This document shows positions 3,124 through 45,867 of a stretch of 45,867 nucleotides of DNA, piece by piece. The stretch spans positions 1 to 45,867 of the forward strand of contig NZ_BCRE01000001.1 in the NCBI RefSeq assembly GCF_001552435.1. The letters run 5' to 3'. The notes under the pieces were generated by a model. The model ran no database searches. It worked only from the letters and a program-made list of their open reading frames with translations, and had not been told where the DNA came from. Source of the stretch: Kribbia dieselivorans NBRC 106261 (GTDB lineage: Bacteria; Actinomycetota; Actinomycetes; Actinomycetales; Dermatophilaceae). The translations under genes were made by a program, and so were the position numbers. Numbering within the stretch: position 1 is the stretch's first letter; every line of letters begins with the position of its first letter.

Positions 3124-3135
3124 CAATGGAGCACA

Positions 3136-3648: not shown

Positions 3649-3717
3649 AGCGACCCACGCTGTCCGTGCAGAGCGATACTGTCTGCGCACTGACCGCAAA
3701 GTGTTGGGGGAGTCACG

Positions 3718-5576: not shown

Positions 5577-5612
5577 GACCATCCGACTGGCGCCTGCCCC
5601 CATGATGGGGTG

Positions 5613-6833
5613 ATGGACAGCCTCCACGTCGACTCCGAGGTCGGCCCGCTCCAGCGCGTCATCCTGCACCGCCCCGGCAAGGAGCTCAACCGCCTCACCC
5701 CGGGCAACAAGGCGGCCCTGCTCTTCGACGAGGTCCCGTGGCTCGAACGCGCCCAGGAGGAACACGACGCGTTCGCCGCCACACTGCGCTCCCTCGACGT
5801 CGACGTCATCCACCTCGCGGACTTGCTCGAACAGACCCTGACCATCCCGCAGGCCCGCACCGCCCTGCTCGACGCGACGTTCGACGAACGCATCGTCGGC
5901 CCGGCGGCGATCGACGAGGTCCGCAGCCACCTCGACGCGCTCACCCCCGCTGCCCTCACCGAGACCCTGATCGCCGGGCTCACCCGCCGCGAGGTCCTCG
6001 AATGGGGCGACGAACCGCACTCCCTCGTGCTCAAGGCCCTCGACCTCGACGACTTCGTGCTCACCCCGCTGCCCAACCACGTCTTCACCCGCGACGCCAC
6101 CTGCTGGATCTACGACGGCGTGGCCATCAACGCCATGCGCAAACGCGCCCGCCTGCGCGAGACCCTCAACTACGAGGCGATCTACCGCTGGCACCCGCTC
6201 TTCACCGCTGACCACCCCCGCTGGTCCACCGGCAGCACCGAGGGGCCAGCCACCGTCGAAGGCGGTGACGTCCACGTCCTGGGCAACGGCACCGTCCTGG
6301 TCGGCATGGGTGAACGCACCACCGCCCAGGGTGTCGAGCGGCTCGCGCGAAGCCTGTTCGCACGACGCTCCGCCACGCGTGTCGTCGCGCTCGCCCTGCC
6401 GCGCGAGCGGGCCTACATGCACCTCGACACCGTCATGAGCATGGTCGACGTCGACGCGTTCACGTGGTACCCCGGGCTGGCGCCACTGCGCTCCTTCACC
6501 ATCGACCCCGATGGCGACGACTGGGTCGTCACGCCTCACGAACCCGAGGCGATGACGCGCGTCCTGGCCGACACGCTCGGCGTCGACGACGTCCGCCTGC
6601 TGCGCCCCACCCAAGACGCCCACACCGCCGCGCGCGAGCAGTGGGACGACGGCTGCAACGTCCTCGCCGTGCGCCCCGGAGTCGTGCTGGCCTACGAACG
6701 CAACGTCAACACCAACACGTACCTGCGCGCCAACGGCATCGAGGTCATCACCGTCATGGGCAACGAACTCGGCCGCGGCCGAGGCGGCCCGCGCTGCATG
6801 TCCTGCCCGATCGAGCGCGCGAGCGCCGGGTAA
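5613..6833 (+). CDS. arcA: Arginine deiminase
   Basis: Hydrolyses L-arginine to citrulline and ammonia (guanidino-group-modifying, pentein fold; cytoplasmic). 406 aa from ATG 5613, full length for the family. Signatures: [16 protein letters not shown] near the N-terminus, [31 protein letters not shown], the [11 protein letters not shown] histidine region and the C-terminal catalytic cysteine motif [16 protein letters not shown]. No ribosome site precedes ATG 5613 (GTG 5610 is in frame too); a weak -10-like CATGAT at 5601-5606 would fit a leaderless start. The usual partners arcB (ornithine carbamoyltransferase), arcC (carbamate kinase) and arcD (antiporter) are absent nearby; instead a DoxX-like gene and ornithine aminotransferase follow. 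Assignment secure; pathway role is inference. Confidence 0.93.
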
Positions 6834-6837
6834 GTAC

Positions 6838-6884
6838 TTGACGGTTCAAGTTCATCCCCTAGAGTAGTTGACGATTCAAATTCA
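6838..6884 (+). promoter_or_regulatory. Tandem operator-like repeat over the doxX-like promoter
   Basis: Two near-identical 17-nt direct repeats, TTGACGGTTCAAGTTCA (6838-6854) and TTGACGATTCAAATTCA (6868-6884), start 30 bp apart. Each contains a TTGA-N4-TCAA dyad. TTGACG of copy 1 also reads as a -35, with a -10 TAGAGT at 6860-6865 after 16 nt, placing transcription start near copy 2. A repressor bound to both copies would straddle the promoter. MarR-family operators often have this form, but no such regulator is in the window. Confidence 0.6.
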
Positions 6885-6900
6885 ACGTCTAGGAGTTGCC

Positions 6901-7272
6901 ATGAACATCACCCTATGGATCATCGCCGTCGTGCTGGCCGCGTTCTTCCTGCTCGCCGGATTCTCGAAGGTCACCAAGCCCAAGGAGCAGTTCGTCGAGA
7001 CCATGCCGTGGGCCGAGAACTACTCGCCCAGCCTGATCAAGTTCATCGGTGTCGCGGAGATCCTCGGTGCGCTCGGCCTCATCCTGCCGGCCGCCTTCAA
7101 GGTCGCCGTCATCCTGACCCCGTTGGCCGCGACCGGCCTGGCGATCGTCATGCTCCTGGCCATGGTCGTCCACGCTCGCCGCGGGGAGACGCAGGGCGTG
7201 GTCATGAACATCGTCATCTTCCTGCTCCTCGCGTTCGTGGCGATCATGCGGTTCGGTTCGCAGTCCTTCTGA
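6901..7272 (+). CDS. DoxX-like small integral membrane protein
   Basis: 123 aa with four predicted transmembrane helices: residues about 4-20, 48-65, 70-92 and 101-118, with the DoxX_2-type FFLLAGFSKVTKPKEQF after helix 1 and IKFIGVAEILGALGLILP in helix 2. ATG 6901 has AGGAG at 6891-6895. Members of this family are linked to redox or thiol stress and respiration in some bacteria, but the biochemical function is generally not established. It lies between arginine deiminase and ornithine aminotransferase under what looks like its own regulated promoter (repeats at 6838-6884), so it may be independently controlled. Confidence 0.85.
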   Translation: MNITLWIIAVVLAAFFLLAGFSKVTKPKEQFVETMPWAENYSPSLIKFIGVAEILGALGLILPAAFKVAVILTPLAATGLAIVMLLAMVVHARRGETQGVVMNIVIFLLLAFVAIMRFGSQSF

Positions 7273-32865: not shown

Positions 32866-34872
32866 GTGTCCGTCGGCCGAGTCGTCAAGCGGGTTCTCAT
32901 CGGTCGCGCCGAGCGCAGCGATGTCGGTGAGCGAGCCCTCCCCAAGCGGATCGCGCTGCCCGTCTTCGCCAGCGATGCGCTCAGTTCCGTGGCGTACGCC
33001 GCCGACGAGATCTTCCTCGTCCTCGGCCTCGCCGGCGGGTCCCTCGCCCTGACCCAGTCCCTGTGGGTGGCGCTGGCCGTGGCCGTCGTCATGGCGATCC
33101 TCGTGCTGGCCTACCGGCTCAACGTCGTGGCCTACCCTTCCGGCGGCGGCGACTACGAGGTCGTCGGCACCAATCTCGGGCCCCGCGCCGGGCTGGTGGT
33201 CGGGTCGGCGCTGCTCGTCGACTACGTGCTCACGGTGGCGGTCTCGGTCTCGGCCGGCGTGCAGAACGCGTCGACCGCGTTCGGGTGGTTGCGCGGGCAC
33301 GAGGTCATGGTCGCCGCCGCGGCGATCCTCCTGCTCACCCTCGTCAACCTCCGCGGGCTGCGCGAGTCCCGGCGTGCGCTGGCCCTGCCGACCTACCTGT
33401 TCATCGCGGCCATCGCGGCACTCGTCGTCACCGGGGCGGTGCGGCATTTCACCGGCGGATTGCCGGCCGCCGAGAGTGCCGCGCTCGAACTCGTCCCGGC
33501 CGACGGGTACGAGACGGTGGGGATGTTCGCGATGGGCTTCCTCATGTTGCGGGCGTTCTCCTCCGGTAGCGCGGCGTTGACCGGCATCGAGACGATCTCC
33601 ACGGGGGTGCCGGCCTTCAGGTCGCCCAAGGCCAGGAACGCCGCCGTGACCCTGTCGATCATGGGAGCGCTCGGCATCGCGATGCTCCTCTCGGTGGTCG
33701 TCCTCGCCCGCTGGACCGGGGTGCAGCTGGCCGAGAACCCGGCCACCCAACTGCTCCGCGACGGCGTGCCGGTCGGTGAGGCACACATCCAGGAGACCCT
33801 GCTCGGCCAGATCTCCCGTGCGGTGTTCTCCGGCTTCGACGCCGGTGTCATCCTCGTGTCGATCGTCACCGGCCTGATCCTGCTGGTGGCGGCCAACTCG
33901 GCGTTCAACGGCTTCCCGGCGTTGGCCTCGATCCTGGCCCGAGACGGGTTCCTGCCGCGCCAGCTGTACACCCGCGGCGACCGGCTGGCGTTCTCCAACG
34001 CCATCCTCGCCCTGGCCGTCGCCGCTGCCGTCTTTGTGCTGGCCTTCGACGCGAGTGTGACGCGGCTGATCCAGCTGTACATCGTCGGCGTGTTCGTGTC
34101 GTTCGCGCTCAGCCAGATCGCCATGGTGCGGCACTGGAACCGTGAACTGATCGCCTCCCAGGACCCGACCGCCCGGGCCGGCATCGGGCGGCGCCGCGTG
34201 GTCAACGCCGTGGGCGCGACCGTGTCGGTGCTCGTGCTGATCATCGTGCTGGTCACGAAGTTCACCCACGGGGTCTTCCTGGCGGTGTTGGCCATGGCCG
34301 GGTTGTACGTCGTCATGTGGCTGGTGCGCCGGCACTACGACCGGGTGTCACGTGAGCTGGTTGTCATCGACGACGACACCTCCCTGACTCGGTTGCCCTC
34401 GCGGGTGCACGCGGTCGTGCTCATCTCGAAGCTGAACAAGCCTGCCGTGCGTGCCCTGGCCTACGCCCGGGCGACCCGGCCGACGACGCTCGAGGCGGTC
34501 ACGGTCTCCGTCGACCAGGAGGCGACCGCCGAACTCGTCGCCGAGTGGGATCGGCGAGGCTTCGACACTCCGCTCAAGACCCTGGCCTCGCCGTACCGGG
34601 ACGTGACGGGCCCGGTCGTCGACTACGTCACCTCGTTGCGCAGCCAGAACCCGCGCGAATTGGTGGCGGTCTACGTGCCGGAGTACGTCGTGGGGCGTTG
34701 GTACCAGAATCTGCTGCACAACCAGAACGCGGCGCGGCTCAAGCGTCGACTGCACTTCGAGTCGGGAGTCATGGTCTGTTCGGTGCCGTGGCAGTTGCGA
34801 TCCGCCAAGGGACAGGAGGTCTGGCTCGACCAGGCCCCACCCGTGACCGGCAGTGTGCGAGGGCCGAGATGA
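32866..34872 (+). CDS. KimA-like APC-superfamily potassium transporter
   Basis: 668 aa from GTG 32866. From memory of Bacillus KimA (YdaO), a K+/H+ symporter, the match is extensive: LIGRAERSD...LPKRIALPVFASDALSSVAY, YPSGGGDYEVVGTNLG, LLVDYVLTVAVSVSAGVQNA, RAFSSGSAALTGIETIS, VAANSAFNGFPALASILARD and RGDRLAFSNAI. Twelve or so membrane helices (residues about 30-505) precede a cytoplasmic C-terminal domain of about 150 residues (RELVVIDDDTSLTRLPS...). Amino-acid permease is the generic alternative. Neighbouring ceoB and ceoC, encoding K+-transport regulators, support potassium as substrate. Its last bases overlap the next gene's ATG (ATGA). Confidence 0.85.
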   Translation: MSVGRVVKRVLIGRAERSDVGERALPKRIALPVFASDALSSVAYAADEIFLVLGLAGGSLALTQSLWVALAVAVVMAILVLAYRLNVVAYPSGGGDYEVVGTNLGPRAGLVVGSALLVDYVLTVAVSVSAGVQNASTAFGWLRGHEVMVAAAAILLLTLVNLRGLRESRRALALPTYLFIAAIAALVVTGAVRHFTGGLPAAESAALELVPADGYETVGMFAMGFLMLRAFSSGSAALTGIETISTGVPAFRSPKARNAAVTLSIMGALGIAMLLSVVVLARWTGVQLAENPATQLLRDGVPVGEAHIQETLLGQISRAVFSGFDAGVILVSIVTGLILLVAANSAFNGFPALASILARDGFLPRQLYTRGDRLAFSNAILALAVAAAVFVLAFDASVTRLIQLYIVGVFVSFALSQIAMVRHWNRELIASQDPTARAGIGRRRVVNAVGATVSVLVLIIVLVTKFTHGVFLAVLAMAGLYVVMWLVRRHYDRVSRELVVIDDDTSLTRLPSRVHAVVLISKLNKPAVRALAYARATRPTTLEAVTVSVDQEATAELVAEWDRRGFDTPLKTLASPYRDVTGPVVDYVTSLRSQNPRELVAVYVPEYVVGRWYQNLLHNQNAARLKRRLHFESGVMVCSVPWQLRSAKGQEVWLDQAPPVTGSVRGPR

Positions 34873-36125
34873 TGACCACCCAGAGTGCAGAACCCATCGA
34901 CGGCCTGACCGTCGGCGATGAGGTCGAGGTGGTCGTCGGGGCCGTGGCCCACGGTGGGCACTTCGTCGCCCGCCACGAGGGTCGCGTCATCTTCGTGCGG
35001 CACACGCTGCCCGGTGAACGGGTGCGGGTGCGGATCACCGACGGTGGCCCGGGCGAACGATTCCTCCGCGGCGATGCCGTCGAGGTGCTGGAGCCCAGTG
35101 CGGATCGCGTCTCCCCGCCGTGCGCCTTCTCCGGGCCCGGGATGTGTGGCGGCTGCGACTTCCAGCATGTGGATCTGGCGCGCCAGCGTCTCCTCAAGGC
35201 CGATGTCGTTCGGGAGCAGTTCGAGCGGCTGGCCGGTATCGGCGATCTGGGGGACCTTGTCGTCGAGCCCGTCGAGGGCAGTGTGCCCGAGACGCTAGCC
35301 GGGTTGCGTTGGCGCTCGCGAGTCGAGTTCGCCGTCGGCGAGGACGGCCGCGCGGGCCTGCGCCGCCACCGCAGTCACGCCATTGTGCCGATCGATGACT
35401 GTGTGATCGCCGATCCGCGGATCATCGACACCGGAGTGCTGGGTCGAACCTGGGCGGGGGAGAAGGCCGTCGACGTCATCGCCCCGGCCGTCGGTGAGAC
35501 CGTCGTCGTGCCTGTGCCCAGCGGCGATCCGGGGCCGGACGTCACCGAGACCGTGGCCGTCGCGGGGCGCGAGCACGCGTATGCCGTGGCGGCTCGCGGG
35601 TTCTGGCAGGTTCATACCGGAGCGCCGAACACGTTCGTGGACGCGGTCATGGCCGCCGCCGAGGCGCGACCGGGCGAGAAGGTCATAGACCTCTACAGCG
35701 GGGCCGGGCTGTTCTCCGTGCCGTTGGCGCATGCCGTGGGGGAGCGCGGTGCGGTCCAGGGGGTCGAGTCCGACCGGTCCGCGGTCGAGCACGCCGTCGC
35801 CAACCTTGCCGCCACGCCGTGGGCGCAGGCCAAGCGTGATCGGGTCGACCGGTGGCTCAATGCCGCGGCCCGCACGCGTCGGCGGGCCGATCTGGTCGTG
35901 CTCGACCCGCCGCGCACGGGAGCCAAGCGGGCCGTGCTGCGCGACGTCGTCGGGCTGCGGCCGCGGCGCATCGTGTACGTCGCGTGCGACCCGGCGGCGT
36001 TGGCGCGTGACGCGGGGTATCTGCGTGAGTTCGGATGGTCGCTGACCGGGCTGCGGGCGCTCGACGCGTTCCCGATGACGCATCACGTGGAGTGCGTGGC
36101 GGTCTTCGAGCCAGCGCGCGGCTGA
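34869..36125 (+). CDS. TrmA/RumA-type RNA m5U methyltransferase
   Basis: 418 aa, ATG 34869 overlapping the KimA-like stop. SAM-dependent uracil-5 methyltransferase of tRNA or 23S rRNA. TRAM domain at residues about 12-75 (VGDEVEVVVGAVAHGGHFVARH); [4Fe-4S] cysteines in CAFSGPGMCGGCDF with a fourth in DDCVIAD; SAM motif VIDLYSGAGLFSVPLAHAVG; DPPRTGA; and the nucleophile cysteine in IVYVACDPAALARDAGYL. RumA/RlmD-type specificity is suggested by the Fe-S cysteines, but TrmA-like cannot be excluded. It is the last gene of the high-GC, conserved part of the window. Confidence 0.9.
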   Translation: MMTTQSAEPIDGLTVGDEVEVVVGAVAHGGHFVARHEGRVIFVRHTLPGERVRVRITDGGPGERFLRGDAVEVLEPSADRVSPPCAFSGPGMCGGCDFQHVDLARQRLLKADVVREQFERLAGIGDLGDLVVEPVEGSVPETLAGLRWRSRVEFAVGEDGRAGLRRHRSHAIVPIDDCVIADPRIIDTGVLGRTWAGEKAVDVIAPAVGETVVVPVPSGDPGPDVTETVAVAGREHAYAVAARGFWQVHTGAPNTFVDAVMAAAEARPGEKVIDLYSGAGLFSVPLAHAVGERGAVQGVESDRSAVEHAVANLAATPWAQAKRDRVDRWLNAAARTRRRADLVVLDPPRTGAKRAVLRDVVGLRPRRIVYVACDPAALARDAGYLREFGWSLTGLRALDAFPMTHHVECVAVFEPARG

Positions 36126-36364: not shown

Positions 36365-36391
36365 AAGCGGCTAGTCTCCAGACAACCGCTT
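36365..36391 (+). promoter_or_regulatory. Operator-like dyad over the phosphotransferase promoter
   Basis: AAGCGG (36365-36370) and CCGCTT (36386-36391) are perfect reverse complements, and inside them GTCT-CC-AGAC (36374-36383) forms a second dyad. A -10-like TAGTCT (36372-36377) lies within, so a repressor here would block transcription of the phosphotransferase operon. The TetR-family gene at 40902 is the obvious candidate regulator, by proximity only. The rest of the 319-nt gap (36126-36444) shows nothing else clear. Confidence 0.45.
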
Positions 36392-36444
36392 GTGATCCGT
36401 CCCCCGTCGGCGTGGGATGGAAATGACCGAAGGGAGTCTGCCCG

Positions 36445-37512
36445 GTGACTGGGGTAGCGGAGGTACGAGAAGGCTTGACAGAGATCTTTCGGGTCTCCGG
36501 ACACCTCGCGGTGGGAGGCTCGCTCAACGAGATCCGAATGGAGCCGATCGGCACAGGACAGATGGCAGACACCCTTCGGGTCTCGCTCGATCGTCCACCA
36601 GCCGGGCTCCCGTCGTCGTTTGTGGTGAAGCTTCCCGTGGCAGAGGGGCAGACGGCTGTCACTGCTCGACACGCGGCCGTGTACGAGCGCGAGTTGCGGT
36701 TCTATCGTGAACTTCGACCGGAACTCCCCGGCCTTGAGTGCCCCCGCTTCTACGGCACGTTTGACGTAGAAGGTGAGCCGGCACTGGTGCTCGAGGAGAT
36801 CCTTGGCGCTCAGCAGGGGAACCAGATCGAGGGCGCTGTCCAGGGCCAAGCCGGACTTGCCGTGGACCAACTCGCCAAATTCCAGGTGCGCTGGTGGAAC
36901 GACGAGGATTTCGGTTCGCAAGACTGGCTCCAGCGTCGAGCAGGAGCGCCTATTGCAGATCGTCAGAAGCGCTACCTGGCCGCTTGGGCGAAGGTGGCCG
37001 AATCAGTGGCTGATGACCTGGTCCCTGGTGCTGCGGAAGTGATCGAGGAGTTTGGCCACCGGTGTGACCTTTGGTCCAGGTCGTACGATGGCCCACTTAC
37101 TTTGGTCCACCACGATTATCGACTGGACAATATGCTGTTCACCGACCATTCGGTCTCAATCGTGGACTGGCAAACTCTTGGGTGGGGACCTCCTGCGTGG
37201 GATATCGCCTACTTCATGGGGACCTCAATCCCGGTCGAAGAACGACGAGCGACCGAACGCGAGCATGTGGAGTGCCACGCCGAGCAGCTCCGTGAATCGG
37301 GCGTTATCGGCTGGGATGATGACGTGGCGTGGCATCGATACCGACAGATGTCGTTCAGCACGCTCCTGCTCACGGTCCCGGCAGCTGGCGAGGTGCGCAC
37401 GAACAAGCGCGCGCGTCAAATGTTTGTGGCCATGTGGAACCGTGCTGCGCAAATGGTCATCGACCTTGACGCGCGTGAGTTCCTCCTTACGGAAGCGGAC
37501 CAGCCATGTTGA
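36445..37512 (+). CDS. Phosphotransferase 1, APH/ecdysteroid-kinase-like
   Basis: 355 aa, GTG 36445 with AGGGAG at 36431-36436. Protein-kinase-like fold small-molecule kinase: IGTGQMADTLRVSLD (N-lobe), FVVKLP with the ATP lysine, GNQIEG, catalytic loop VHHDYRLDNMLF (H-x-D-x4-N) and IVDWQTLGWGPPAWDIAYF (metal Asp). The family phosphorylates hydroxyls of aminoglycosides, choline, steroids or other small molecules; no substrate can be read from the sequence. It shares IGTGQ-x-ADxxRV and GNQ signatures with the second kinase at 38660 and overlaps the next gene by 7 nt. Lower GC (60% on a counted line) than the core genome. Confidence 0.88.
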   Translation: MTGVAEVREGLTEIFRVSGHLAVGGSLNEIRMEPIGTGQMADTLRVSLDRPPAGLPSSFVVKLPVAEGQTAVTARHAAVYERELRFYRELRPELPGLECPRFYGTFDVEGEPALVLEEILGAQQGNQIEGAVQGQAGLAVDQLAKFQVRWWNDEDFGSQDWLQRRAGAPIADRQKRYLAAWAKVAESVADDLVPGAAEVIEEFGHRCDLWSRSYDGPLTLVHHDYRLDNMLFTDHSVSIVDWQTLGWGPPAWDIAYFMGTSIPVEERRATEREHVECHAEQLRESGVIGWDDDVAWHRYRQMSFSTLLLTVPAAGEVRTNKRARQMFVAMWNRAAQMVIDLDAREFLLTEADQPC

Positions 37513-38609
37513 GCACGTACGATGACCTTCTCGTCCACCAGACCCCAGCTCCCGTGCTGCACTTGGCCAACGGCGACCCTGCATTCTATGAACGCTACTA
37601 CCTGACTGCCTTCGCGCCAGACGCGTCGGGGCACTTGGGGTTTGGTCTAAGCATCTATCCCAACACAGGGATCATCGACGCCTCGCTCAGCGTCTCGCGG
37701 GACGGCGTGCAGGAATCGGTATTTGCCTCTGGACGCTTGCCCACGGACCGCACGCAGGCCAAGGTAGGGCCGTTGCGGGTCGAGGTGCTCGAACCACTGC
37801 GTCGGATCAGGGTCGTCGCGGAGATGACGGATGGACTTGCTGCCGACGTCACCTTCGTGGCGGAGGGTAGCCCGATGGAGGAGCAGCGGCTGATTCGCAA
37901 CCGCGGTACAGCTGTCGCATCCGACCGCACGCGTTTTGTGCAGTTCGGAAGCTGCACCGGGTCGGTCCTCACCCCCGTCGGCACAATGTCCATCGACGGA
38001 TGGCATGGCGTGCGTGACCGTTCCTGGGGTGTACGGCGCCAGGCCACTGCCGAGGATGTCGCATCGGCGGAGGTGAGGCCGATATACGCAGTGTGGAGTG
38101 TGCTGCACTTTCCTGACGACTTTCTCCAGGTCACGCTGCACGAGGCTCCGGATGGGGTGGGCCATGTCCGGATGGCAATGCAGACGCCTCGGGTGAGTCC
38201 GAGCGAGGTCGTACCGAACGTGCCTCTGCGGCGCACCGACGACCTGCGCGTGGCCATCACCTATCAGCCCGGCACCCGTCGCCCGGCGAGCGCCCAATTG
38301 AAAGTCGGGCCTCGAGGGCCGCTCGAGTTCGACATCGCCGTGACTCCCCTGCAGGTCTTTCAGATGAAGGGTCTGGGCTATTACCACCCCGAACGCGGTC
38401 ACGGCCGCGACCATCACGGGGAGTCAGTGTCTCGGGAATCCTGGCGTATCGATGACCTTGACCCGTTGGCCAAGGAGAACGTGCACGCCCAACAACTCTG
38501 CATCGTTCGCAGATCCGACGGCGTCGACGGCATCGGGATCTTCGAACACATCGCGATGGGACCACATCAGCCTTCTGGCCTTCCCAAAGGCCTGGCTGCG
38601 CCGCAATGA
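37506..38609 (+). CDS. AttH/CrtC lipocalin-like protein (DUF7064/DUF7065-type)
   Basis: 367 aa, beginning MLSTYDDLLVHQTPAPVLHL inside the end of phosphotransferase 1. Mostly beta-strand with no signal peptide or membrane segment. The central motif IDGWHGVRDRSWGVR recalls the GxRDxxWG region of the carotenoid-hydratase/AttH lipocalin-like fold, whose two beta-barrels bind hydrophobic ligands; GYYHPERGHGRDHHG is a His-rich stretch near the C-terminus. I place it near DUF7064/DUF7065 proteins, which also occur with this kinase type, but that is by eye. Enzymatic activity (hydratase or isomerase) or ligand carriage are both possible. Function unknown. Confidence 0.7.
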   Translation: MLSTYDDLLVHQTPAPVLHLANGDPAFYERYYLTAFAPDASGHLGFGLSIYPNTGIIDASLSVSRDGVQESVFASGRLPTDRTQAKVGPLRVEVLEPLRRIRVVAEMTDGLAADVTFVAEGSPMEEQRLIRNRGTAVASDRTRFVQFGSCTGSVLTPVGTMSIDGWHGVRDRSWGVRRQATAEDVASAEVRPIYAVWSVLHFPDDFLQVTLHEAPDGVGHVRMAMQTPRVSPSEVVPNVPLRRTDDLRVAITYQPGTRRPASAQLKVGPRGPLEFDIAVTPLQVFQMKGLGYYHPERGHGRDHHGESVSRESWRIDDLDPLAKENVHAQQLCIVRRSDGVDGIGIFEHIAMGPHQPSGLPKGLAAPQ

Positions 38610-38659
38610 CGCTGTCACAGCCACCTGCCACCCAAGTATTCAAATGAATCGAGGAGCCC

Positions 38660-39724
38660 ATGCACGCATCGGATGTTAACGCAGAATGGATCGACAAGGT
38701 CCTGCACCAGAACGGCACCCTTCCGTCGGACACAAGGATCACAGGTGCCAAAGTTCGACCGATTGGGACCGGTCAAGTCGCCGACTCGGTACGGGTGGAA
38801 CTCGACATTGAAGGTGATGCCCCGTTCAGTTCACTGGTCGCAAAGGTGTCGTCCGACAATGACCAGAGCCGCGCGGCCGGGCGAACTGAACTCAACTATC
38901 AACGTGAGGTGCGGTTCTACGAGCAGGTCGCCCCACGACTCTCCGCAAGGGTGCCGCATTGCTACTACTCCGAAATCTGCTCCAATGGCACCGAATTCGT
39001 GCTCCTTCTGGAAGATCTCTCGCCCGCGACTGCAGGGAACCAGTTGGACGGCACGAGCATTGAGGATGTTGAAGAAGCACTGATTCAAGCAGCCGGTTTC
39101 CACGCTCCGTTCTGGGACAGCGATGAGTTTTCCGGGTCGGATTGGCTGGACATATCCAGCAGTTACTGGCCACGGTTCGAGCAGATGATGCCGCAGTGGT
39201 GGGGTGGGTTCCGGGACCGCTATGAGGGCAGGTTGACCGACGACCACGCCGCTTTCGGGGACCGGTTCGTGGGTGGCATTTCCAAGTACTACGAGCTGAT
39301 GCGGTCGCTACCTGCGACCATCCAGCACGGTGACTTCCGCCCCGACAACATCCTTTTCGGGGTCGGTGGAGATGCGCGCTCCTTGGCTGTCGTCGACTGG
39401 CAGACGGTGCTGCTTGCGCCAGGTCCCGTCGACGCCGCCTACTGCGTGGGAGGATCTTTGCCGGTCGAAACCAGGCGCGCCCACGAAGAGCGCCTCCTCA
39501 GTCTGTACATAGATGAGCTACGGCGCCTGGGGGTGACGACCGAACGGGCCTTGATCGAGCAGGGGTATGCGGCCGGCACGCTGCACAACTTCATCATCGG
39601 GGTTGCTGCTGCGATGCTGGTGGTTCGAACTGACCGGGGCGACGCGCTCTTCCAATCCATGGTGACCAATGCCGTCACGCACGCTCAGGACAAGCGCGCA
39701 CTGGAACAGGTCGGCATCGCGTGA
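38660..39724 (+). CDS. Phosphotransferase 2, APH/ecdysteroid-kinase-like
   Basis: 354 aa, ATG 38660 after GAGGAG (38650-38655). Paralogue of the gene at 36445: RPIGTGQVADSVRVELD, LVAKVSSDN (ATP lysine), LLLEDLSPATAGNQLDG, catalytic IQHGDFRPDNILFG and AVVDWQTVLLAPGPVDAAY. All kinase residues are present. Overlaps the LLM oxidoreductase start by 1 nt (TGATG). A 12-nt palindrome ATTCAAATGAAT (38638-38649) precedes its ribosome site. One line of this gene counts only 53% GC, the lowest seen in the window, supporting acquisition. Substrate unknown; two related kinases in one operon suggest two hydroxyls or sequential phosphorylation. Confidence 0.88.
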   Translation: MHASDVNAEWIDKVLHQNGTLPSDTRITGAKVRPIGTGQVADSVRVELDIEGDAPFSSLVAKVSSDNDQSRAAGRTELNYQREVRFYEQVAPRLSARVPHCYYSEICSNGTEFVLLLEDLSPATAGNQLDGTSIEDVEEALIQAAGFHAPFWDSDEFSGSDWLDISSSYWPRFEQMMPQWWGGFRDRYEGRLTDDHAAFGDRFVGGISKYYELMRSLPATIQHGDFRPDNILFGVGGDARSLAVVDWQTVLLAPGPVDAAYCVGGSLPVETRRAHEERLLSLYIDELRRLGVTTERALIEQGYAAGTLHNFIIGVAAAMLVVRTDRGDALFQSMVTNAVTHAQDKRALEQVGIA

Positions 39725-40797
39725 TGATTGATGACGCCCCACAAGCCGGACCTCGGTTTCCCGAGCTCGGTTTCTACACCTTGGGCGGACACGTCGAATC
39801 GCCTCACGAGATGTTCGATGAGCTTCGGCTTGCTGAGGAGCTGGGGCTGGGCAACGCCTTCATCTCCGAGAGGCTCAACGTCAAGGAGGCATGCGCTCTC
39901 TCGGGCGCAGCCGGTGCAGTGACGAGCAGCATCGACATCACCACCGCCGCGACGAACATCAACACCAGGCACCCGGCCATCTCTGCTGCCTTCGCCACCA
40001 CGATGCATCGGCTCACCGGGGGGCGGTTCATCTTCGGGATCGGCCGAGGGCTTCGGCCTCAGATAGCCGGACTTGGCCTATCCCAGACCACCACCGCTGA
40101 GATGGAGGAGTTCGCGCTCTTGATGCGGCGGCTGTGGCGCGGCGAGGTCGTGACCGGGTACGACGGACTTCTAGGGCAGTTCCCGAAAGTCGCCTTGGAC
40201 CCGAACTTCGACGAAGACATTCGACTGGCGACAACGGCATTCGGGCCCCAAACCTTGGCGCTCGCGGGGCGGGCCTTCGACGTCGTCATTCTGCATACCT
40301 TCTTCAGCGACGAGACCGTTCTCCGCGTAGTCGACACGATCCGGCGCAGCGCCGAGGAAGCGGGGCGCGACCCTGCCTCGGTGAAGATCTGGTCCTGTTA
40401 TGCCACAGTCCCTGACGAACTCCTGCCGGAAGCAATCATGAAGAAGACCGTCGGGCGACTCGCAACGTACCTCCAGGTCTACGGCCAGCTTCTCGTGGAG
40501 ACCAACCACTGGGACCCGGTGCCGTTGAGACGTTTCCGCGAATCGACGGTGATCAACGAACTCTCGGGATGGGCAGACGCCAGTGCGACGCTGGAGCAGT
40601 TGGAGAGAATCCGAGATCTGCTTCCCTCAGAGTGGCTGGCCTGTGCCGCTACAGGCTCACCGGCTGCTTGCGCCGAAGCCGTCCGGAGCCAATTGCACCT
40701 GGGCTGTGACGGCGTGATCATGCACGGCGCGACTCCCTTGGAACTGCGGTCCGTAGTTCGGGAGTACGGGGCTCTCCACACCCACCTGCCGACGTAG
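39724..40797 (+). CDS. F420-dependent LLM-class oxidoreductase (TIGR03857-type)
   Basis: 357 aa from ATG 39724. Luciferase-like monooxygenase fold: LGFYTLGGHVESPHEM, ELGLGNAFISERLNVKEA, ITTAATNINTRHP, GRFIFGIGRG and CDGVIMHGATPLEL. These segments match the actinobacterial TIGR03857 F420-dependent group as I recall it. Such enzymes move hydride between F420 and a ketone, alcohol or enone, or reduce C=C bonds. It is coupled to phosphotransferase 2, so it probably acts on the same substrate. No F420 biosynthesis gene is in the window. Confidence 0.85.
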   Translation: MIDDAPQAGPRFPELGFYTLGGHVESPHEMFDELRLAEELGLGNAFISERLNVKEACALSGAAGAVTSSIDITTAATNINTRHPAISAAFATTMHRLTGGRFIFGIGRGLRPQIAGLGLSQTTTAEMEEFALLMRRLWRGEVVTGYDGLLGQFPKVALDPNFDEDIRLATTAFGPQTLALAGRAFDVVILHTFFSDETVLRVVDTIRRSAEEAGRDPASVKIWSCYATVPDELLPEAIMKKTVGRLATYLQVYGQLLVETNHWDPVPLRRFRESTVINELSGWADASATLEQLERIRDLLPSEWLACAATGSPAACAEAVRSQLHLGCDGVIMHGATPLELRSVVREYGALHTHLPT

Positions 40798-40831
40798 TCT
40801 CATGGCAACGGTTGTGAACGCATCTTCGCAG

Positions 40832-40844
40832 TTAGCGCTAAGAT
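40832..40844 (+). promoter_or_regulatory. Palindrome overlapping the -10 of the TetR gene
   Basis: TTAGCGCTAA (40832-40841) is a perfect palindrome and overlaps a -10-like TAAGAT (40839-40844). ACGGTTG (40809-40815) and CAACCGT (40863-40869) form an outer dyad around it. The layout fits autorepression by the TetR-family protein encoded at 40902. Confidence 0.45.
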
Positions 40845-40901
40845 GAGCGAGTTCCATTCGAGCAACCGTGAGGTGATGACCCTGCGGAGGGAGGCGAAAC
40901 C

Positions 40902-41609
40902 GTGAGCGGTACCGACGAGGCTGTCAGCAGTTCGCTCATCACCGAGTTCTACAGCGACGCAGGCTTGGCCGCCGAAGTTCCCTCCAAACGACCGAACAAG
41001 CGGGGGGAGCAGACCCGTGAACGACTGATCAAGGCCGCTACCGAGTGCTTCACCGAGTACGGCTACACACGAACGCGGATCTCGGATGTCGTGCACCGCG
41101 CAGACACAGCCCAGGGCAACTTCTACCGCCACTTCGGGTCCTTGGACGAGGCTTTCCTCGCCGTGCTCAGGCCAGGGTTGGAGGAACTGGCGAGCGCGTC
41201 CACGAGACGCTCGGGACACTCCACCGACTTGGCCAGCCTGGTCGAAACCAACTCCACCTATCTGCACACCTATGCCCGTCATCGACACATCCTGCGCCTC
41301 CTTCGTGAGGCCGCTGCATCAAGCCCCAACGACGGTTTCCAGTCACTGTGGCTACGGCTTCGTGGCGATTTCGTCGCACGTACGAGACGCTGGCTGGTGC
41401 GACTACACGAGGCAGGGAAGATCGAGGACGTCAACCTCGACCTGCTGGCCGAATCGCTCGGCTGCCTGACGGAGCAGATGGCCTACGTCCATGTGGGACT
41501 TCCCCCGACCACGCCCCGCCGCGAGCGGATCGATGAACTCGGTCAGGCCCTTGGCGAGGCGTGGTTCCGTCTCATCCCGCGCCGTGTGTCAGAACTCGAT
41601 CTTGACTGA
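40902..41609 (+). CDS. TetR-family transcriptional regulator
   Basis: 235 aa, GTG 40902 with GGAGGGAGG directly upstream. After a 30-residue N-terminal extension comes the TetR helix-turn-helix (residues about 35-80): RGEQTRERLIKAATECFTEY, TRTRISDVVHRADTAQGNFYRHF. The C-terminal half is an all-helical ligand-binding domain. It most likely represses the flanking kinase/LLM operon and/or the minus-strand dehydrogenase operon. Its 3' end overlaps the convergent reductase gene by 21 nt. Ligand unknown. Confidence 0.9.
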   Translation: MSGTDEAVSSSLITEFYSDAGLAAEVPSKRPNKRGEQTRERLIKAATECFTEYGYTRTRISDVVHRADTAQGNFYRHFGSLDEAFLAVLRPGLEELASASTRRSGHSTDLASLVETNSTYLHTYARHRHILRLLREAAASSPNDGFQSLWLRLRGDFVARTRRWLVRLHEAGKIEDVNLDLLAESLGCLTEQMAYVHVGLPPTTPRRERIDELGQALGEAWFRLIPRRVSELDLD

Positions 41610-42656
41610 CTGACTCGACGGCGTGGCCTGACACGCCAAGATGTACCCGTCGGCGATGTCTTCGGCCTCCAAGGCGTCGGTTTGGCCGAGGTTGACGGTG
41701 CCTTGGCCGAGGTGACAGGTGCAGGCTCCGCACTTGCCCTCGCGACATGCGTACGGTGTGTCAATGCCGTTGAGAACCATGACGTCGACCAAGGTATGGG
41801 TGGCCGGCCACGCCAGTTCATGCACGGCCCCATCGATGTTCACCTCGACGAGGGCAGCGTCAGAGAGATTCTCCTCGGCAATCTCCGCGATCGGCTGGAA
41901 GGGATCGCCGGTCAGCGAACGGTACTCCTCGGTCTGGATCCGATAACTGTCGAAGCCTGCTGAGACTGCCCCCTCGCGCACCATCTCCATGAACGGAGCC
42001 GGGCCACAGACAAAGATCTCGCGCTCTCGGTAGGGGGCTGCCCAGGCGGCGAACGCCTCGGCCGTGGGCAGCCCCCGGTCGGCTTCGAGCCAGTGCTCAA
42101 CGACGAGTCGTTCGCCATACTCGTCGGCCAGCCTCTGCAGTTCCCCATCGAAGATGATGGACGCTCTGTCGCGGTTGGCGTAGAAGAGGGCGATCCGGCC
42201 CGTCACCGAGGCCAGGACGGCGCGCAGGACCGACATCGCCGGTGTCACGCCACTCCCGGCTGCACAGAGCAGCAAGTCGGCCTCCGGGGATCGCGGACAG
42301 AAGAGTCCGCTGGGCGGCAGCACCCGCAGTTGCTTACCGGCCGCGGCGTGATCGCACAGCCAGTTGGACGCGTAGCCATTCGCGGTGCGCTTCACCGTGA
42401 CCGCGATGCCGTGCTCGGCAGGCGAGCTTGAGATGGAATAGCACCTGGCCACCCAACCGGTCCGGTCACTCGGCACGGCGACGGTGAGAAACTGACCGGC
42501 CCGGAACGCGTACTCATCGGTCAGCGCAGCCGGCACGTCGAACCAGATCGTCACCGCCTCGGCGGTCTCGGGCACAACCCGGTCGATCGTCAGTAGGTGG
42601 CCAAGCAGATGGGCGTCGGGGTCAAGGGAATCTTGACCTGTCACGTGAGTGGTCAT
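41589..42656 (-). CDS. Ferredoxin-NAD(P)H reductase with C-terminal [2Fe-2S] (KshB/PaaE-like)
   Basis: 355 aa from ATG 42654-42656 (GGAG six bases upstream); an in-frame start at 42689 is less likely. Order: FAD domain with RCYSISSSP and VTVKRTANGYASNWLCD; NAD(P)H domain with LLLCAAGSGVTPAMSVLRAV and FVCGPAPFMEMV; and C-terminal plant-type ferredoxin with CREGKCGACTCHL and a distant YILACQAT cysteine, giving all four [2Fe-2S] ligands. It passes electrons to an oxygenase, as KshB does to the Rieske protein KshA in steroid ring opening. No oxygenase is encoded in the window. The gap to the PpdK-like gene is 29 nt, so it belongs to that operon. Confidence 0.9.
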   Translation of the reverse strand: MTTHVTGQDSLDPDAHLLGHLLTIDRVVPETAEAVTIWFDVPAALTDEYAFRAGQFLTVAVPSDRTGWVARCYSISSSPAEHGIAVTVKRTANGYASNWLCDHAAAGKQLRVLPPSGLFCPRSPEADLLLCAAGSGVTPAMSVLRAVLASVTGRIALFYANRDRASIIFDGELQRLADEYGERLVVEHWLEADRGLPTAEAFAAWAAPYREREIFVCGPAPFMEMVREGAVSAGFDSYRIQTEEYRSLTGDPFQPIAEIAEENLSDAALVEVNIDGAVHELAWPATHTLVDVMVLNGIDTPYACREGKCGACTCHLGQGTVNLGQTDALEAEDIADGYILACQATPSSQSVKIEF

Positions 42657-42685
42657 GGGTGGCTCCGTTCCGTCGTCGCGGAGTT

Positions 42686-44182
42686 TCATAGCTGGTCGAC
42701 TGCCAGTCGGTGGATGGGGTGTTCCGCGTCGTCAGCGGCGAGGGCGATCATTCGGAGAACGTGTGGGTCGTGGGCCACGGGGGAGGTGTTCACCGTGCCT
42801 TCCGAGTAGACCTTGCCCGTCGTGCCGTCGATCGTGATGACACTGCCGGCCAAGGACCCGACCAGTCCGGGCCCCGCGCCCACGACGCACGGCAAACCAA
42901 TCTCTCGACAGACCAGCGCGGCGTGCGATGTCGCGCCACCGACCTCCGTCAGGACACCAGCAGACTGGAACATGGCTGGAACATCGTCGGGCGCCGTGAA
43001 GGTGCGAACCAGAATCACGCTTTCTCCCTGGCCAACCAGCGCAAGCACCTCCTCGAAGGTGTGGGCGACGTGACCGGTGGCTACGCCGGGGCTTGCCCCG
43101 AGCCCGATCGCCAGGGCCTCGCCGTCCTCCTTCTCGATCAGCGAGGCGTTGGCAAGGGAATCCACATGGTCTGAGCTGACCCTCGACAACGCCTCCTCCG
43201 CGGTGATCGTGCCAGCCTCGAACAGGTCTACGGCGATTCGGACGGAAGCGTGGGGTGAGCGTTTCCCTGCGCGGCTCTGGAGCACGTAGAGGCGTCCCTG
43301 CTCGACCGTGAACTCGACGTCCACGAGATCCCGATACTCAGCCTCGAGCGTCTCGGCAATGCGGCACAGATCTGCGTGCAGGACGGGGTTGCTCTCGACC
43401 AGATCAGTCAGCGGCGTCGGTGTCTTCTCACCCGAGACGACATCCTCACCTTGGGCGTTGGCGAGCCATTCCCCGAAGATCGTCGGTTCTCCAGTGCTCG
43501 GGTCTCGGCTGAACAGCACCCCGGTGCCTGACTGGTCATCTCGGTTCCCGAAGACCATGGCCTGCACGGTGACGGCAGTGCCCCCACCCGTGCCGAGAAC
43601 ATGCCGCTCGCGATAGGCACGGACCCGCTCGTTGGTCCACGAGTCGAAGACTGCGCCGACTGCCGACCGGAGCTGCTCCCAGGCGTCGACCGGGACGGTG
43701 CCTTCGCCGTTGAGGACGATGTCGCTGTAGCAACGCTGGAATCGATCCCATGTGTCCTGCGCCCAAGCCGGGTCTCCGGATTCGGATGCGAGGGCGTCGA
43801 CCAAGTCCGGTGTGAGACCCAGATTGAGGACGGTATCCATCATGCCGGGCATGCTTTGAGCGGCGCCGGATCGGACGGAGACAAGGAGTGGGGAAGGACC
43901 TCGACCGAACGTGCGGCCCGTATCCTTTTCGAGCGCACGGATGGCCTCCACGACGTCGTCCCACGCCGCATCGGGTAGTGCGCGGCCGTTGGCGTGGTAG
44001 AGCCCGCACACAGCGGTGGGCAACGTGAAGGCTGGCGGGACTGGTAGTCCGATCCTGCGCATGTGGTTGACGCTGTAGGCCTTCCCTCCCAAGACCTCAC
44101 GGTCGCCGGGCTGCGAGCCATCGAGGTGGACGACAAAGGGCACGTCGCCTGCCTGGCTGAGCGTGGACGTCGAACTGGTCAT
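42686..44182 (-). CDS. ppdK: PpdK-like protein without the PEP/pyruvate-binding barrel
   Basis: 498 aa. N-terminal ATP-grasp part of pyruvate, phosphate dikinase: VLGGKAYSVNHMRRIGLPVP, LLVSVRSGAAQSMPGMMDTV, AVTVQAMVFGNRDDQSGTGV and NAQGEDVVSGEKTPTPL. It is followed by the swivelling phosphohistidine domain with GGATSHAALVCREIGLPCVV. It stops at DDAEHPIHRLAVDQL, where full-length PPDK (about 870 aa) would continue into the TIM barrel that binds PEP/pyruvate. The same truncated form is known in mycobacteria (Rv1127c, 490 aa), so this is a family type rather than damage. The phosphoryl acceptor is unknown. It overlaps the SDR stop as ATGA, within the ALDH-SDR-ppdK-reductase operon. Confidence 0.88.
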   Translation of the reverse strand: MTSSTSTLSQAGDVPFVVHLDGSQPGDREVLGGKAYSVNHMRRIGLPVPPAFTLPTAVCGLYHANGRALPDAAWDDVVEAIRALEKDTGRTFGRGPSPLLVSVRSGAAQSMPGMMDTVLNLGLTPDLVDALASESGDPAWAQDTWDRFQRCYSDIVLNGEGTVPVDAWEQLRSAVGAVFDSWTNERVRAYRERHVLGTGGGTAVTVQAMVFGNRDDQSGTGVLFSRDPSTGEPTIFGEWLANAQGEDVVSGEKTPTPLTDLVESNPVLHADLCRIAETLEAEYRDLVDVEFTVEQGRLYVLQSRAGKRSPHASVRIAVDLFEAGTITAEEALSRVSSDHVDSLANASLIEKEDGEALAIGLGASPGVATGHVAHTFEEVLALVGQGESVILVRTFTAPDDVPAMFQSAGVLTEVGGATSHAALVCREIGLPCVVGAGPGLVGSLAGSVITIDGTTGKVYSEGTVNTSPVAHDPHVLRMIALAADDAEHPIHRLAVDQL

Positions 44183-45012
44183 GACGTAGAACCTCCCGAG
44201 GTGGGGGACTGGGTTGAGGGTGCTGAAGTGGTCGCATCGATGTGCAACTCGGCTGCTCGACGGGCTGCCATCAGACCGCCTTCTACCAGGATGTCGATGC
44301 CGTTCAGCCAGGTGGCGGCCGGTGAGAGACAGAAGGCCACAACAGCCGCGATCTCCTCCGGGCGTCCATGGCGCCCGACCGTGGCCACCGCGCGGTCCAT
44401 CCGGTGCTGGCCCATGGTGGCCGTGAAATCGCCGAGGATCGGCGTTTCCACCGGCCCGGGGCTGATGCTGAGGGCTCGTACACCCGAACCAAGGAGAGCA
44501 GCGGCCCTGCGCATCATCGCGTCGACGACGACTCTCTTGGACGTGTCGTAGGCGGCCGTGCCATCGATCGGGTGACTCTCAAGCCACGCGTCGATGTCGT
44601 CCGCACTCTGGGCACGGTGCAGCAACTCAAGTGAATCGTCGTGCTGGGCGTTGTTGTGGGCCGCCACCGATGCCACGCTGACGATGGCGCTGTCGGCAAC
44701 CAACCGGGGCTGAAGTGCATCGCTCAGAAGGCGTGGCCCGAGAACGTTGACCCGAAGGATCGTGGCAGGCGGCGCCGTGCCTGGAACCCCGGCCACGTTG
44801 GCAAGACCCCCGATCTGCGCTGGGAGCCGATTCACCAGTTCGGCGATGGCAACTTCGTCGGCCAAGTCACAACCGAGAGTGCCGTCGCCCTCGATGCGGT
44901 CCACCCCTATGACCGTGACCCCTTGATCATGGAGGATCCGGACCAAGGCTGCACCGATGCCGGAGGCGGCCCCGGTGACCACAACAGGGGGGCGAGGAAT
45001 CGTCGTGGTCAT
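44179..45012 (-). CDS. Short-chain dehydrogenase, coniferyl-alcohol-dehydrogenase/HsdA-like
   Basis: 277 aa, ATG 45010-45012 overlapping the ALDH stop (ATGA). Rossmann motif VVVTGAASGIGAALV, GVTVIGVDR, ANVAGVPGTAPP, SVASVAAHNNAQ (catalytic Ser), AYDTSKRVVVDA (Tyr-x3-Lys) and SPGPVETPIL. The GVPGTA and PGPVxTPIL stretches match coniferyl-alcohol dehydrogenase CalA closely from memory, with 3-alpha-hydroxysteroid dehydrogenase HsdA as an alternative. It would oxidise an alcohol to an aldehyde or ketone, feeding the ALDH. A disordered Ser/Thr tail ends the protein. Confidence 0.88.
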   Translation of the reverse strand: MTTTIPRPPVVVTGAASGIGAALVRILHDQGVTVIGVDRIEGDGTLGCDLADEVAIAELVNRLPAQIGGLANVAGVPGTAPPATILRVNVLGPRLLSDALQPRLVADSAIVSVASVAAHNNAQHDDSLELLHRAQSADDIDAWLESHPIDGTAAYDTSKRVVVDAMMRRAAALLGSGVRALSISPGPVETPILGDFTATMGQHRMDRAVATVGRHGRPEEIAAVVAFCLSPAATWLNGIDILVEGGLMAARRAAELHIDATTSAPSTQSPTSGGSTS

Positions 45013-45867
45013 GCCATCACCGCCGTCACGTCGGTGAACTCTTCGATGCCCAAGGACCCGAGCTCGCGCCCGTACCCCGAGTTGCGCATCCCACCAAATG
45101 GCACCAAGGGTCGATTCCGAGTGCGTACCCCGTTGATCTTCACCTGACCCACCGACAACTGCCCAGCAATGCGGAGGGCCCGTTCGTCGTCGCCGGACCA
45201 GACCTCGGCCGAGAGCCCGTAGTCGCTGTCATTCGCGATCCTGACGGCATCCTGCTCGCCGGTGTAGGTCTGGATGACCACGACAGGTCCGAAGATTTCC
45301 TCCCGAACGGCCTCGGCGCGTTCAGGGAGACCGGTAATGACGGTGGGGTCGACGAAGAATCCGGTGGCGGTCTGCTCCGACCGCCGGCCACTGCCGGTCA
45401 CCAACCGCCCACCCTGCTCCACGGCTCGGTTGATGCGGGCCAGGACAGCCTGCATCTGACGGTGGGTGACCACGGGACCATGGGTGGTGGAGGGCTTGGT
45501 CGGATCGTCGAGAACGAGCCCGGCGGCAGCGTCGCGAACCAGCTCCACGGCGTCGTCGATGCGGTCAGCCGGCACCAGCATCCGAGTCGGCGCGTTGCAG
45601 GCCTGCCCCGAGTTCACCATGCCACTTGTCAGGGCAGCGGGCACGGCCTGGGCGAAGTCGGCGTCATCCAGGATGAGCGCCGGGGACTTGCCGCCGAGCT
45701 CCAAGGCGGTGCGGGTGAGTTCGCGAGTGGCCAGTGCGGCGACCTCCTTGCCTGCGCGCACACTTCCCGTGAACGAGAGTCGAGCAAGAAGCGGGTGCCC
45801 GGCCAGTGCGGCACCGGTGATCGGCCCAGAGCCGGTGACGACGTTGAGGAGACCGGCGGGCGCGCCC
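45009..45867 (-). CDS. NAD(P)-dependent aldehyde dehydrogenase, 5' end outside window
   Basis: The last 285 residues are visible; translation runs in frame to the window edge (PAGLLNVVTGSGPITG and onward). The catalytic general base Glu is in LELGGKSPALIL and the nucleophile Cys in NSGQACNAPTRML; the FGPVVVIQTY and PFGGMRNSGYGRELG motifs complete the class 1/2 ALDH pattern. It oxidises an aldehyde to the acid, most simply the product of the SDR encoded next to it. The start and promoter of this operon are outside the window. Confidence 0.93.
   Translation of the reverse strand, partial: GAPAGLLNVVTGSGPITGAALAGHPLLARLSFTGSVRAGKEVAALATRELTRTALELGGKSPALILDDADFAQAVPAALTSGMVNSGQACNAPTRMLVPADRIDDAVELVRDAAAGLVLDDPTKPSTTHGPVVTHRQMQAVLARINRAVEQGGRLVTGSGRRSEQTATGFFVDPTVITGLPERAEAVREEIFGPVVVIQTYTGEQDAVRIANDSDYGLSAEVWSGDDERALRIAGQLSVGQVKINGVRTRNRPLVPFGGMRNSGYGRELGSLGIEEFTDVTAVMA

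Follow-up and report, generated by a model that had tools for sequence, protein, structure and literature searches.

A candidate catabolic island of Kribbia dieselivorans with a putative split dikinase and a P450

The window analysed here, which is the whole of contig C1 of Kribbia dieselivorans (45,867 nt), ends in nine genes arranged in two convergent units, five on the plus strand and four on the minus strand, and the question is what such a set might do. The original prediction was a catabolic system in which phosphorylation is part of the route, and all the genes that it named are present with intact motifs. Our analysis favours, with a probability of roughly 0.6, a catabolic island in which a split dikinase would phosphorylate a hydroxyl of the substrate, and a P450, an SDR, an ALDH, a phosphatase and a CoA ligase would then act.

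The two facing units lie in a region of lower GC content, as predicted (63.9% over 36445-45867 vs 69.6% over 1-36200), and the TetR and FdR genes overlap by 21 bp at the point of convergence. The left flank, outside the island, is a gene for an RlmD-type RNA methyltransferase (34545..36125, plus strand). The window ends with the contig, inside the ALDH gene, and contig C2 of the same genome carries the continuation. C1 and C2 share a 10-bp overlap and the ALDH reading frame is unbroken across the joint; the join is based on these 10 bp, the frame and synteny. In 20 of the 27 relatives having about 1.5 kb of flank, RlmD is directly followed by AcnA, which is found here at C2:9581-12364. The best reading of this arrangement is that an island of about 19 kb was horizontally acquired between rlmD and acnA. 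A contaminant contig was ruled out because the host core genes on C1 and C2 keep the order seen in relatives.

The minus-strand unit provides the oxidative enzymes. The C-terminal part of the ALDH (45009..45867, minus strand) covers the Pfam Aldedh profile from position 180 up to its last position, and the N-terminal part is at C2:1-579 (minus strand), the joined frame being uninterrupted. The neighbouring SDR alcohol dehydrogenase (44179..45012, minus strand) is coniferyl-alcohol-dehydrogenase-like (PRK12428, 233 bits, just under the cut-off of 242). These two genes agree with the predicted oxidation of an alcohol to an aldehyde and an acid. FdR, a reductase of the PaaE/KshB type (41589..42689, minus strand), shows the domain order FAD-NAD-[2Fe-2S] with four Cys. 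Electron supply to a Rieske oxygenase or a P450 had been proposed for it; no Rieske oxygenase occurs in the C1 and C2 parts of the cluster, but a CYP125-like P450 is encoded at C2:585-1781 (minus strand), and FdR is likely its electron donor. The closest structure to this P450 is an ancestral CYP125 (about 320 bits), a kinship which suggests hydroxylation of a methyl group but names no substrate. The flank beyond 45867 thus holds the expected oxygenase and also a CoA ligase (C2:5532-7160, minus strand), together with a SurE-type phosphatase (C2:4607-5500, plus strand) that carries a nucleotidase annotation.

The plus-strand unit opens with APH1, an APH/EcKL-fold small-molecule kinase (36445..37512, plus strand; Pfam APH, 75 bits; HHDYRLDN and VDW), and also contains APH2, an EcKL/APH kinase (38660..39724, plus strand). 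The two were correctly taken for paralogs: they are 29% identical and both have the catalytic H-x-D-x4-N and VDW motifs (Pfam APH/EcKL). The kinase profile matches 3dxp, the ACAD11 kinase domain (8v3v) and Rv3168 (3ats), each over short stretches. Orthology of APH1 with Rv3168 was not retained, a single-sequence comparison giving no match and the profile match being weak. APH1 is paired with a gene (37506..38609, plus strand) whose product had been labelled AttH/CrtC-like, or lipocalin-like. This label found no support beyond a sub-threshold match to DUF7065 (Pfam, E 0.0088), and the protein belongs to the Rv3169 family (NCBIfam NF053593, 304.8 bits vs a cut-off of 150); the gene has no counterpart among 57 relatives. 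The predicted F420-dependent enzyme is a LLM-class oxidoreductase (39721..40797, plus strand; TIGR03857, 367.9 bits vs a cut-off of 218.4). As to F420 synthesis in the host, a partial CofD is encoded on C261 and scores under the CofD family cut-off. The unit closes with the TetR-family regulator of the cluster (40902..41609, plus strand; Pfam TetR_N).

Much of this gene set was found again at 19 loci, hereafter type-1 loci, in Rhodococcus, Gordonia, Nocardia and others, including a cluster annotated on plasmid pA of R. pyridinivorans. P450, SDR, PpdK and TetR are present at all 19 (the TetR orthologs compared being 53-73% identical), ALDH, CoA ligase and the MarR-like protein at 18/19, the acceptor and FdR at 17/19 and SurE at 16/19. 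The distances between loci of the cluster genes correlate with one another (Spearman 0.59-0.93). Because the set recurs, the grouping of the genes is not due to chance. There are partial sets: at type-1 locus L038, PpdK is present while the acceptor and SurE are absent within 10 kb, and several genomes (L199, L202) have the acceptor with P450/SDR/ALDH and no PpdK nearby. A second cluster of like logic, here called type 2, is found in the same K. dieselivorans genome on contig C71 and also on plasmid pLP414 of R. opacus.

The predicted joint recurrence held for this core but not for APH1 and the Rv3169-family gene, which lie outside it. The APH1/Rv3169/APH2/LLM unit and the PpdK/SDR/ALDH/P450 unit could thus be separate pathways that became neighbours, and the Rv3168-Rv3169 operon indeed stands alone in M. 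tuberculosis, where it is repressed by Rv3167c (PMC5340868). We consider this unlikely. APH2 and LLM do recur in type-1 loci, where they adjoin each other beside the acceptor (LLM orthologs, 67-75%). Moreover, counterparts of APH1 (37% to P0022) and of the Rv3169-family gene are present in the paralogous dikinase/P450 cluster on C71, and Rv3169 homologs lie near other dikinase clusters and acceptors.

The acceptor subunit (C2:2705-4504, minus strand; 73% to P0012) resembles rifampin phosphotransferase (RPH) in its substrate-binding and swivel domains but lacks an ATP-grasp domain. Its model aligns to RPH 5fbt/5hv1 across some 466 columns (E 1e-14), the pLDDT of the model being only 64.5. Residues 276-576 align to positions 567-863 of the NCBIfam RPH profile, and residues 15-579 to positions 319-880 of the NCBIfam RedH profile, which is the longest profile match. 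PigC and RedH are prodigiosin and undecylprodigiosin ligases. A transient phosphate could, as in these ligases, drive a condensation, and the cluster would then make or tailor a secondary metabolite or a lipid; P450, SDR, ALDH, CoA ligase and LLM enzymes occur in biosynthesis too. We regard this as improbable since the recurrent core has no synthase, PKS, NRPS, export or efflux gene, the phosphatase that is conserved next to the kinase points to an intermediate bearing phosphate, and related members on Rhodococcus plasmids adjoin beta-oxidation and carboxylase genes. Phosphatases recur in the related clusters, though not always from one family. RPH phosphorylates rifampin, and the RPH-like acceptor, the TetR control and the sporadic distribution of the island would also suit a detoxification system in which the dikinase attaches phosphate to a toxic phenol, terpenoid or antibiotic, which the oxidases then clear. 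This appears slightly less probable still, because the phosphatase and the CoA ligase would reverse or channel the product and because of the lack of an efflux gene just mentioned.

The proposed phosphoryl donor, PpdK (42686..44182, minus strand; 498 aa), was rightly described as barrel-less. It comprises ATP-grasp and swivel domains (GGATSHA, catalytic His420), scores 600 bits against NF004531 (cut-off 456) and matches PPDK 1kbl (E 3e-108), with which it shares the GGxTSH motif. The profile search gave no domain match for the PEP/pyruvate-binding barrel, the genomic company is other than that of PPDK, and PpdK falls in a barrel-less clade of the tree. Its existing annotation and its score above the NCBIfam cut-off would fit an ordinary pyruvate, phosphate dikinase of central metabolism lying by chance beside a P450 pathway, a reading we reject as very improbable because the barrel is gone (74-155 residues after the His in the barrel-less group vs 418-436 in full enzymes), a full-length PPDK (912-aa open frame) is encoded on C92 of the same genome, and a MarR-like protein is constantly alongside.

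This last gene (C2:1982-2596, plus strand) accompanies 55 of 56 barrel-less PpdK loci vs none of 24 full-length ones. The MarR winged-helix match is restricted to the first ~70 residues of the protein, and most of its invariant residues lie in a C-terminal helical domain for which a PDB search gave no clear match. It is probably part of the donor/acceptor dikinase. A tentative extension, which we hold to be possible but doubtful, is that barrel-less PpdK together with the MarR-like protein serves actinobacterial catabolism as a general phosphoryl-donor module, in a three-component dikinase in which one donor would supply several interchangeable acceptors by transfer from the PpdK swivel to that of the acceptor.

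How does this machinery compare with known systems? The P450, the dehydrogenases and other enzymes of the 4-cresol pathway are CreJEF, CreG, CreC and CreD; compared as protein classes only, the cre system and the island have a dikinase, a P450, alcohol and aldehyde dehydrogenases and a phosphatase in common. 4-Cresol catabolism begins with CreHI, which like HpeHI and PpsAB is a two-component dikinase with an RPH-type acceptor comprising substrate-binding and swivel domains (PMC12167813, PMC9618137). The island shares with these systems the split dikinase, putative here, and the RPH-like acceptor, and with the Hpe cluster also a phosphatase and a CoA ligase. However, HpeI, CreI and PpsB are PEP-synthase-like ATP subunits without a swivel, whereas the island PpdK is of the PPDK type and has its own swivel His in a sequence (TEVGGATSH) conforming to the T/S-x-x-G-G-x-x-x-H motif of HpeH. 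The acceptor departs from this motif (VDVGAPFSH or VNVGAPFSH), the His being retained and the T/S and second G altered. The island further adds the MarR-like partner, has a SurE-type instead of a NagD-type phosphatase, and contains the CYP125-like P450, the fused [2Fe-2S] reductase, the extra APH kinases and the F420 enzyme. Type-2 clusters have PpdK, acceptor, MarR-like domain, phosphatase, ADH, ALDH, P450, CoA ligase, APH and Rv3169 in common with it, but their acceptor has an N-terminal swivel fused to the MarR-like domain, the CoA ligase is NDP-forming, the ADH is a Zn-ADH and the phosphatase a Tyr-phosphatase; their PpdK lost the barrel independently (tree). In Rv3168-Rv3169, an APH-type kinase gene adjoins an Rv3169-family gene as in the island, but no dikinase or P450 is described there. 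Finally, LvaA and ACAD10/11 are APH-fold hydroxyacyl-CoA kinases (PMC11342911) that share this fold with APH1 and APH2, ACAD11 being matched by the kinase profile; unlike the LvaA system, the island has no LvaC-like acyl-CoA dehydrogenase in its C1 and C2 parts.

From these parts, and by analogy with the logic of the 4-cresol pathway, we infer the following order of steps, in which the substrates and the roles of the MarR-like, APH, Rv3169-family and LLM proteins are likewise proposals. PpdK would bind ATP and carry the phosphohistidine, and the acceptor would bind the substrate and use its own swivel His; together, and probably with the MarR-like protein, they would phosphorylate the hydroxyl of a lipophilic substrate. 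The predicted phosphorylation is thus kept, but most likely it is carried out mainly by PpdK and the acceptor encoded beyond the window, rather than by the APH kinases on their own. The P450, with electrons from the FAD/[2Fe-2S] reductase, would hydroxylate a methyl group, the resulting alcohol would be oxidized to an acid by the SDR and then the ALDH, the SurE-type phosphatase would release the hydroxyl and the CoA ligase would make the thioester. APH2, here with APH1, may next phosphorylate the hydroxyacyl-CoA in the manner of LvaA and ACAD10/11, and the F420 enzyme may adjust a C=C or C=O ahead of beta-oxidation.

Judged from its genes, the cassette probably tags an alcohol or phenol with phosphate for oxidation to a burnable acid. 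To our knowledge, the known phosphorylation-first catabolic routes concern a handful of phenols only; the cassette would take this idea, with a differently built kinase, to a P450 pathway over several actinobacterial families. Its parts are known singly and, as predicted, their combination appears undescribed: a literature search found no paper describing a Rhodococcus cluster with a PEP-utilizing enzyme and a P450, and a paper on the p-cresol transcriptome of R. opacus 1CP makes no mention of a dikinase. The island also gives a genomic context to Rv3169-family proteins and a testable function to the 'pyruvate, phosphate dikinase' and 'MarR regulator' genes of many mycobacteria, among them M. 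lepraemurium and M. uberis, which are host-restricted. If the three-component reading were true, the first of these names would be a misnomer in many mycobacteria, and 'MarR' would be an enzyme subunit and not a regulator.

The 36445–45867 region of the window holds nine genes in two convergent units. The plus-strand unit encodes two APH/EcKL-fold kinases (APH1 and APH2) around an Rv3169-family protein, then the F420-dependent oxidoreductase LLM and a TetR regulator; the minus-strand unit encodes the FAD/NAD/[2Fe-2S] reductase FdR, the dikinase relative PpdK, an SDR and a truncated ALDH. All catalytic motifs are intact, and the GC content of the cluster region is 63.9% versus 69.6% in the remaining window. 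The window is the entire contig C1 of a 310-contig assembly, and its continuation, contig C2, was located by querying the K. dieselivorans genome with neighbour genes known from relatives. C2 opens with an ALDH N-terminal part in matching orientation and has 10 bases (GGGCGCGCCC) in common with the window end; once both are joined, the ALDH frame is uninterrupted. C2 further encodes a P450 (585–1781, minus strand), a MarR-like protein (1982–2596, plus), an RPH-like acceptor subunit (2705–4504, minus), a SurE-type phosphatase (4607–5500, plus), a CoA ligase (5532–7160, minus) and, after these cluster genes, AcnA (from 9581).

Synteny supports this join. Since RlmD flanks the cluster on C1 and AcnA lies on C2, and the two genes are directly adjacent in 20 of 27 relatives, the cluster amounts to about 19 kb of DNA inserted between rlmD and acnA. 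The Rv3169-family gene was found in none of the 57 relatives searched, and acceptor orthologs (at least 60% identity) are confined, outside K. dieselivorans, to 5 of the 395 class genomes, so the cluster is a sporadic island, probably gained by horizontal transfer.

The nearest PpdK relatives (58–64%) come from Rhodococcus, Nocardia, Gordonia, Aldersonia, Nocardioides and Actinomycetospora. Their 18 loci and plasmid pA of R. pyridinivorans P23 mostly follow one order: LLM, APH2, acceptor; SurE; MarR-like, CoA ligase; P450, ALDH, SDR, PpdK, TetR, FdR. P450, SDR, PpdK and TetR are present in all 19 loci, ALDH, CoA ligase and the MarR-like gene in 18, acceptor and FdR in 17 and SurE in 16, several absences coinciding with contig or locus ends. 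APH2 and LLM orthologs were detected in 7/19 and 6/19 loci respectively, the compared flank mostly stopping short of them elsewhere. Pairwise distances between loci correlate among these genes (0.59–0.93), and the acceptor is the best-kept protein (66–73% identity to the K. dieselivorans copy). K. dieselivorans adds APH1 and the Rv3169-family gene to this set; both also occur in a second cluster of this genome (contig C71), and Rv3169 homologs adjoin acceptors in further genomes and plasmids. The pA cluster also contains a short PorA-porin-like gene (L118:10640–11032), perhaps involved in substrate uptake.

PpdK can be aligned to PPDK (1kbl) across its ATP-grasp and swivel domains. It retains the GGATSH motif as well as the GGK, SVRSGA and EFT...LQxR stretches, but lacks the barrel. 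The acceptor has the profile of RPH (rifampin phosphotransferase) minus its ATP-grasp domain, and its predicted fold, of modest confidence (pLDDT 64.5), matches RPH 5fbt and 5hv1 (E 1e-14). The same architecture is known from HpeH, CreH and PpsA, which serve as acceptor subunits in dikinases phosphorylating phenols at the outset of their catabolism (PMC12167813, PMC9618137). Their partners HpeI, CreI and PpsB, however, are ATP-grasp only and PEP synthase-like; for every phenolic kinase known so far, this published work reports a nucleotide motif nearer to PEP synthase than to PPDK. Because the proposed donor described here is PPDK-like and carries a swivel domain, we consider the system a variant rather than a member of this group.

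A MarR-like gene accompanies the barrel-less enzymes. Of the 80 PpdK loci compared, 24 encode full-length proteins, with 418–436 residues after the His, and 56 encode barrel-less proteins, in which 74–155 residues follow it (in one, 71 when measured in this way). The MarR-like gene is missing from all 24 full-length loci and present in 55 of the 56 barrel-less ones; a contig end truncates the remaining locus. It is also present in 18/18 acceptor-bearing class genomes versus 60/377 others (395 genomes, kinship uncorrected). The C71 cluster and R. opacus plasmid pLP414 encode it as a fusion with a swivel/acceptor protein. MarR resemblance is confined to the first 70 residues; the rest is a confidently predicted helical domain (pLDDT 95) which holds most invariant residues and has no clear match in the PDB. 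We infer that the MarR-like protein is an enzyme subunit or, less probably, a regulator. Open frames for the barrel-less PpdK/MarR-like pair are retained in the host-restricted mycobacteria M. lepraemurium (L085) and M. uberis (L102).

All tested barrel-less PpdKs, including that of the window, form one group (100/100) separate from full-length PPDK, save those of C71 and pLP414 (L120:15289–17220 and L136:11770–13551), which are nested among full-length actinobacterial PPDKs (100/96). Barrel loss probably happened on two separate occasions, and each of the resulting lineages occurs in P450 catabolic clusters. The C71 dikinase/P450 cluster (L120:2866–18648) encodes the fused swivel/MarR-like protein, Rv3169, APH and an FCD regulator, together with an NDP-forming CoA ligase, a Tyr-phosphatase, a Zn-ADH, an ALDH, a P450, the barrel-less PpdK and a ferredoxin reductase, in an order largely repeated on pLP414. 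The PPDK of a record titled Bifidobacterium breve MAG (L089) clusters with uncultured proteobacteria; this contig is probably mis-binned.

Related sets comprising PpdK, MarR-like protein and at least one acceptor, often with phosphatase, CoA ligase, APH and oxygenases, are borne by plasmids of Rhodococcus, Mycobacterium and Diaphorobacter; our literature search found no paper describing this arrangement. On pRZP2 of Rhodococcus sp. ZPP (L218, L137), two acceptors lie about 10 kb apart, in a region also holding phosphatase, P450s, an Rv3169 homolog, APH and beta-oxidation genes, and the MarR-like/PpdK donor pair is about 36 kb distant, suggesting that a single donor serves several acceptors. 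Plasmid pRB98 of R. oxybenzonivorans (L131) groups several PEP-utilizing proteins with PpdK, MarR-like protein, biotin carboxylase, thiolase and Tyr-phosphatase, a combination that recalls the carboxylating Hpe route.

As we infer step order and substrates, the dikinase would phosphorylate a hydroxyl of the substrate, the P450, with FdR, would hydroxylate a methyl, SDR and ALDH would form the acid, the SurE-type phosphatase would take off the phosphate and the CoA ligase would activate the acid. By profile, the APH kinases match the ACAD11 kinase and Rv3168; they may act on the hydroxyacyl-CoA, phosphorylating it in the manner of LvaA (PMC11342911). LLM would work with F420, and a partial CofD gene for this cofactor is present in the genome. 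The structure nearest to the P450 is an ancestral CYP125. As to the substrate, this type of P450 and an SDR resembling coniferyl-alcohol dehydrogenase would suit either a terpenoid bearing a methyl group or an alkylphenol.
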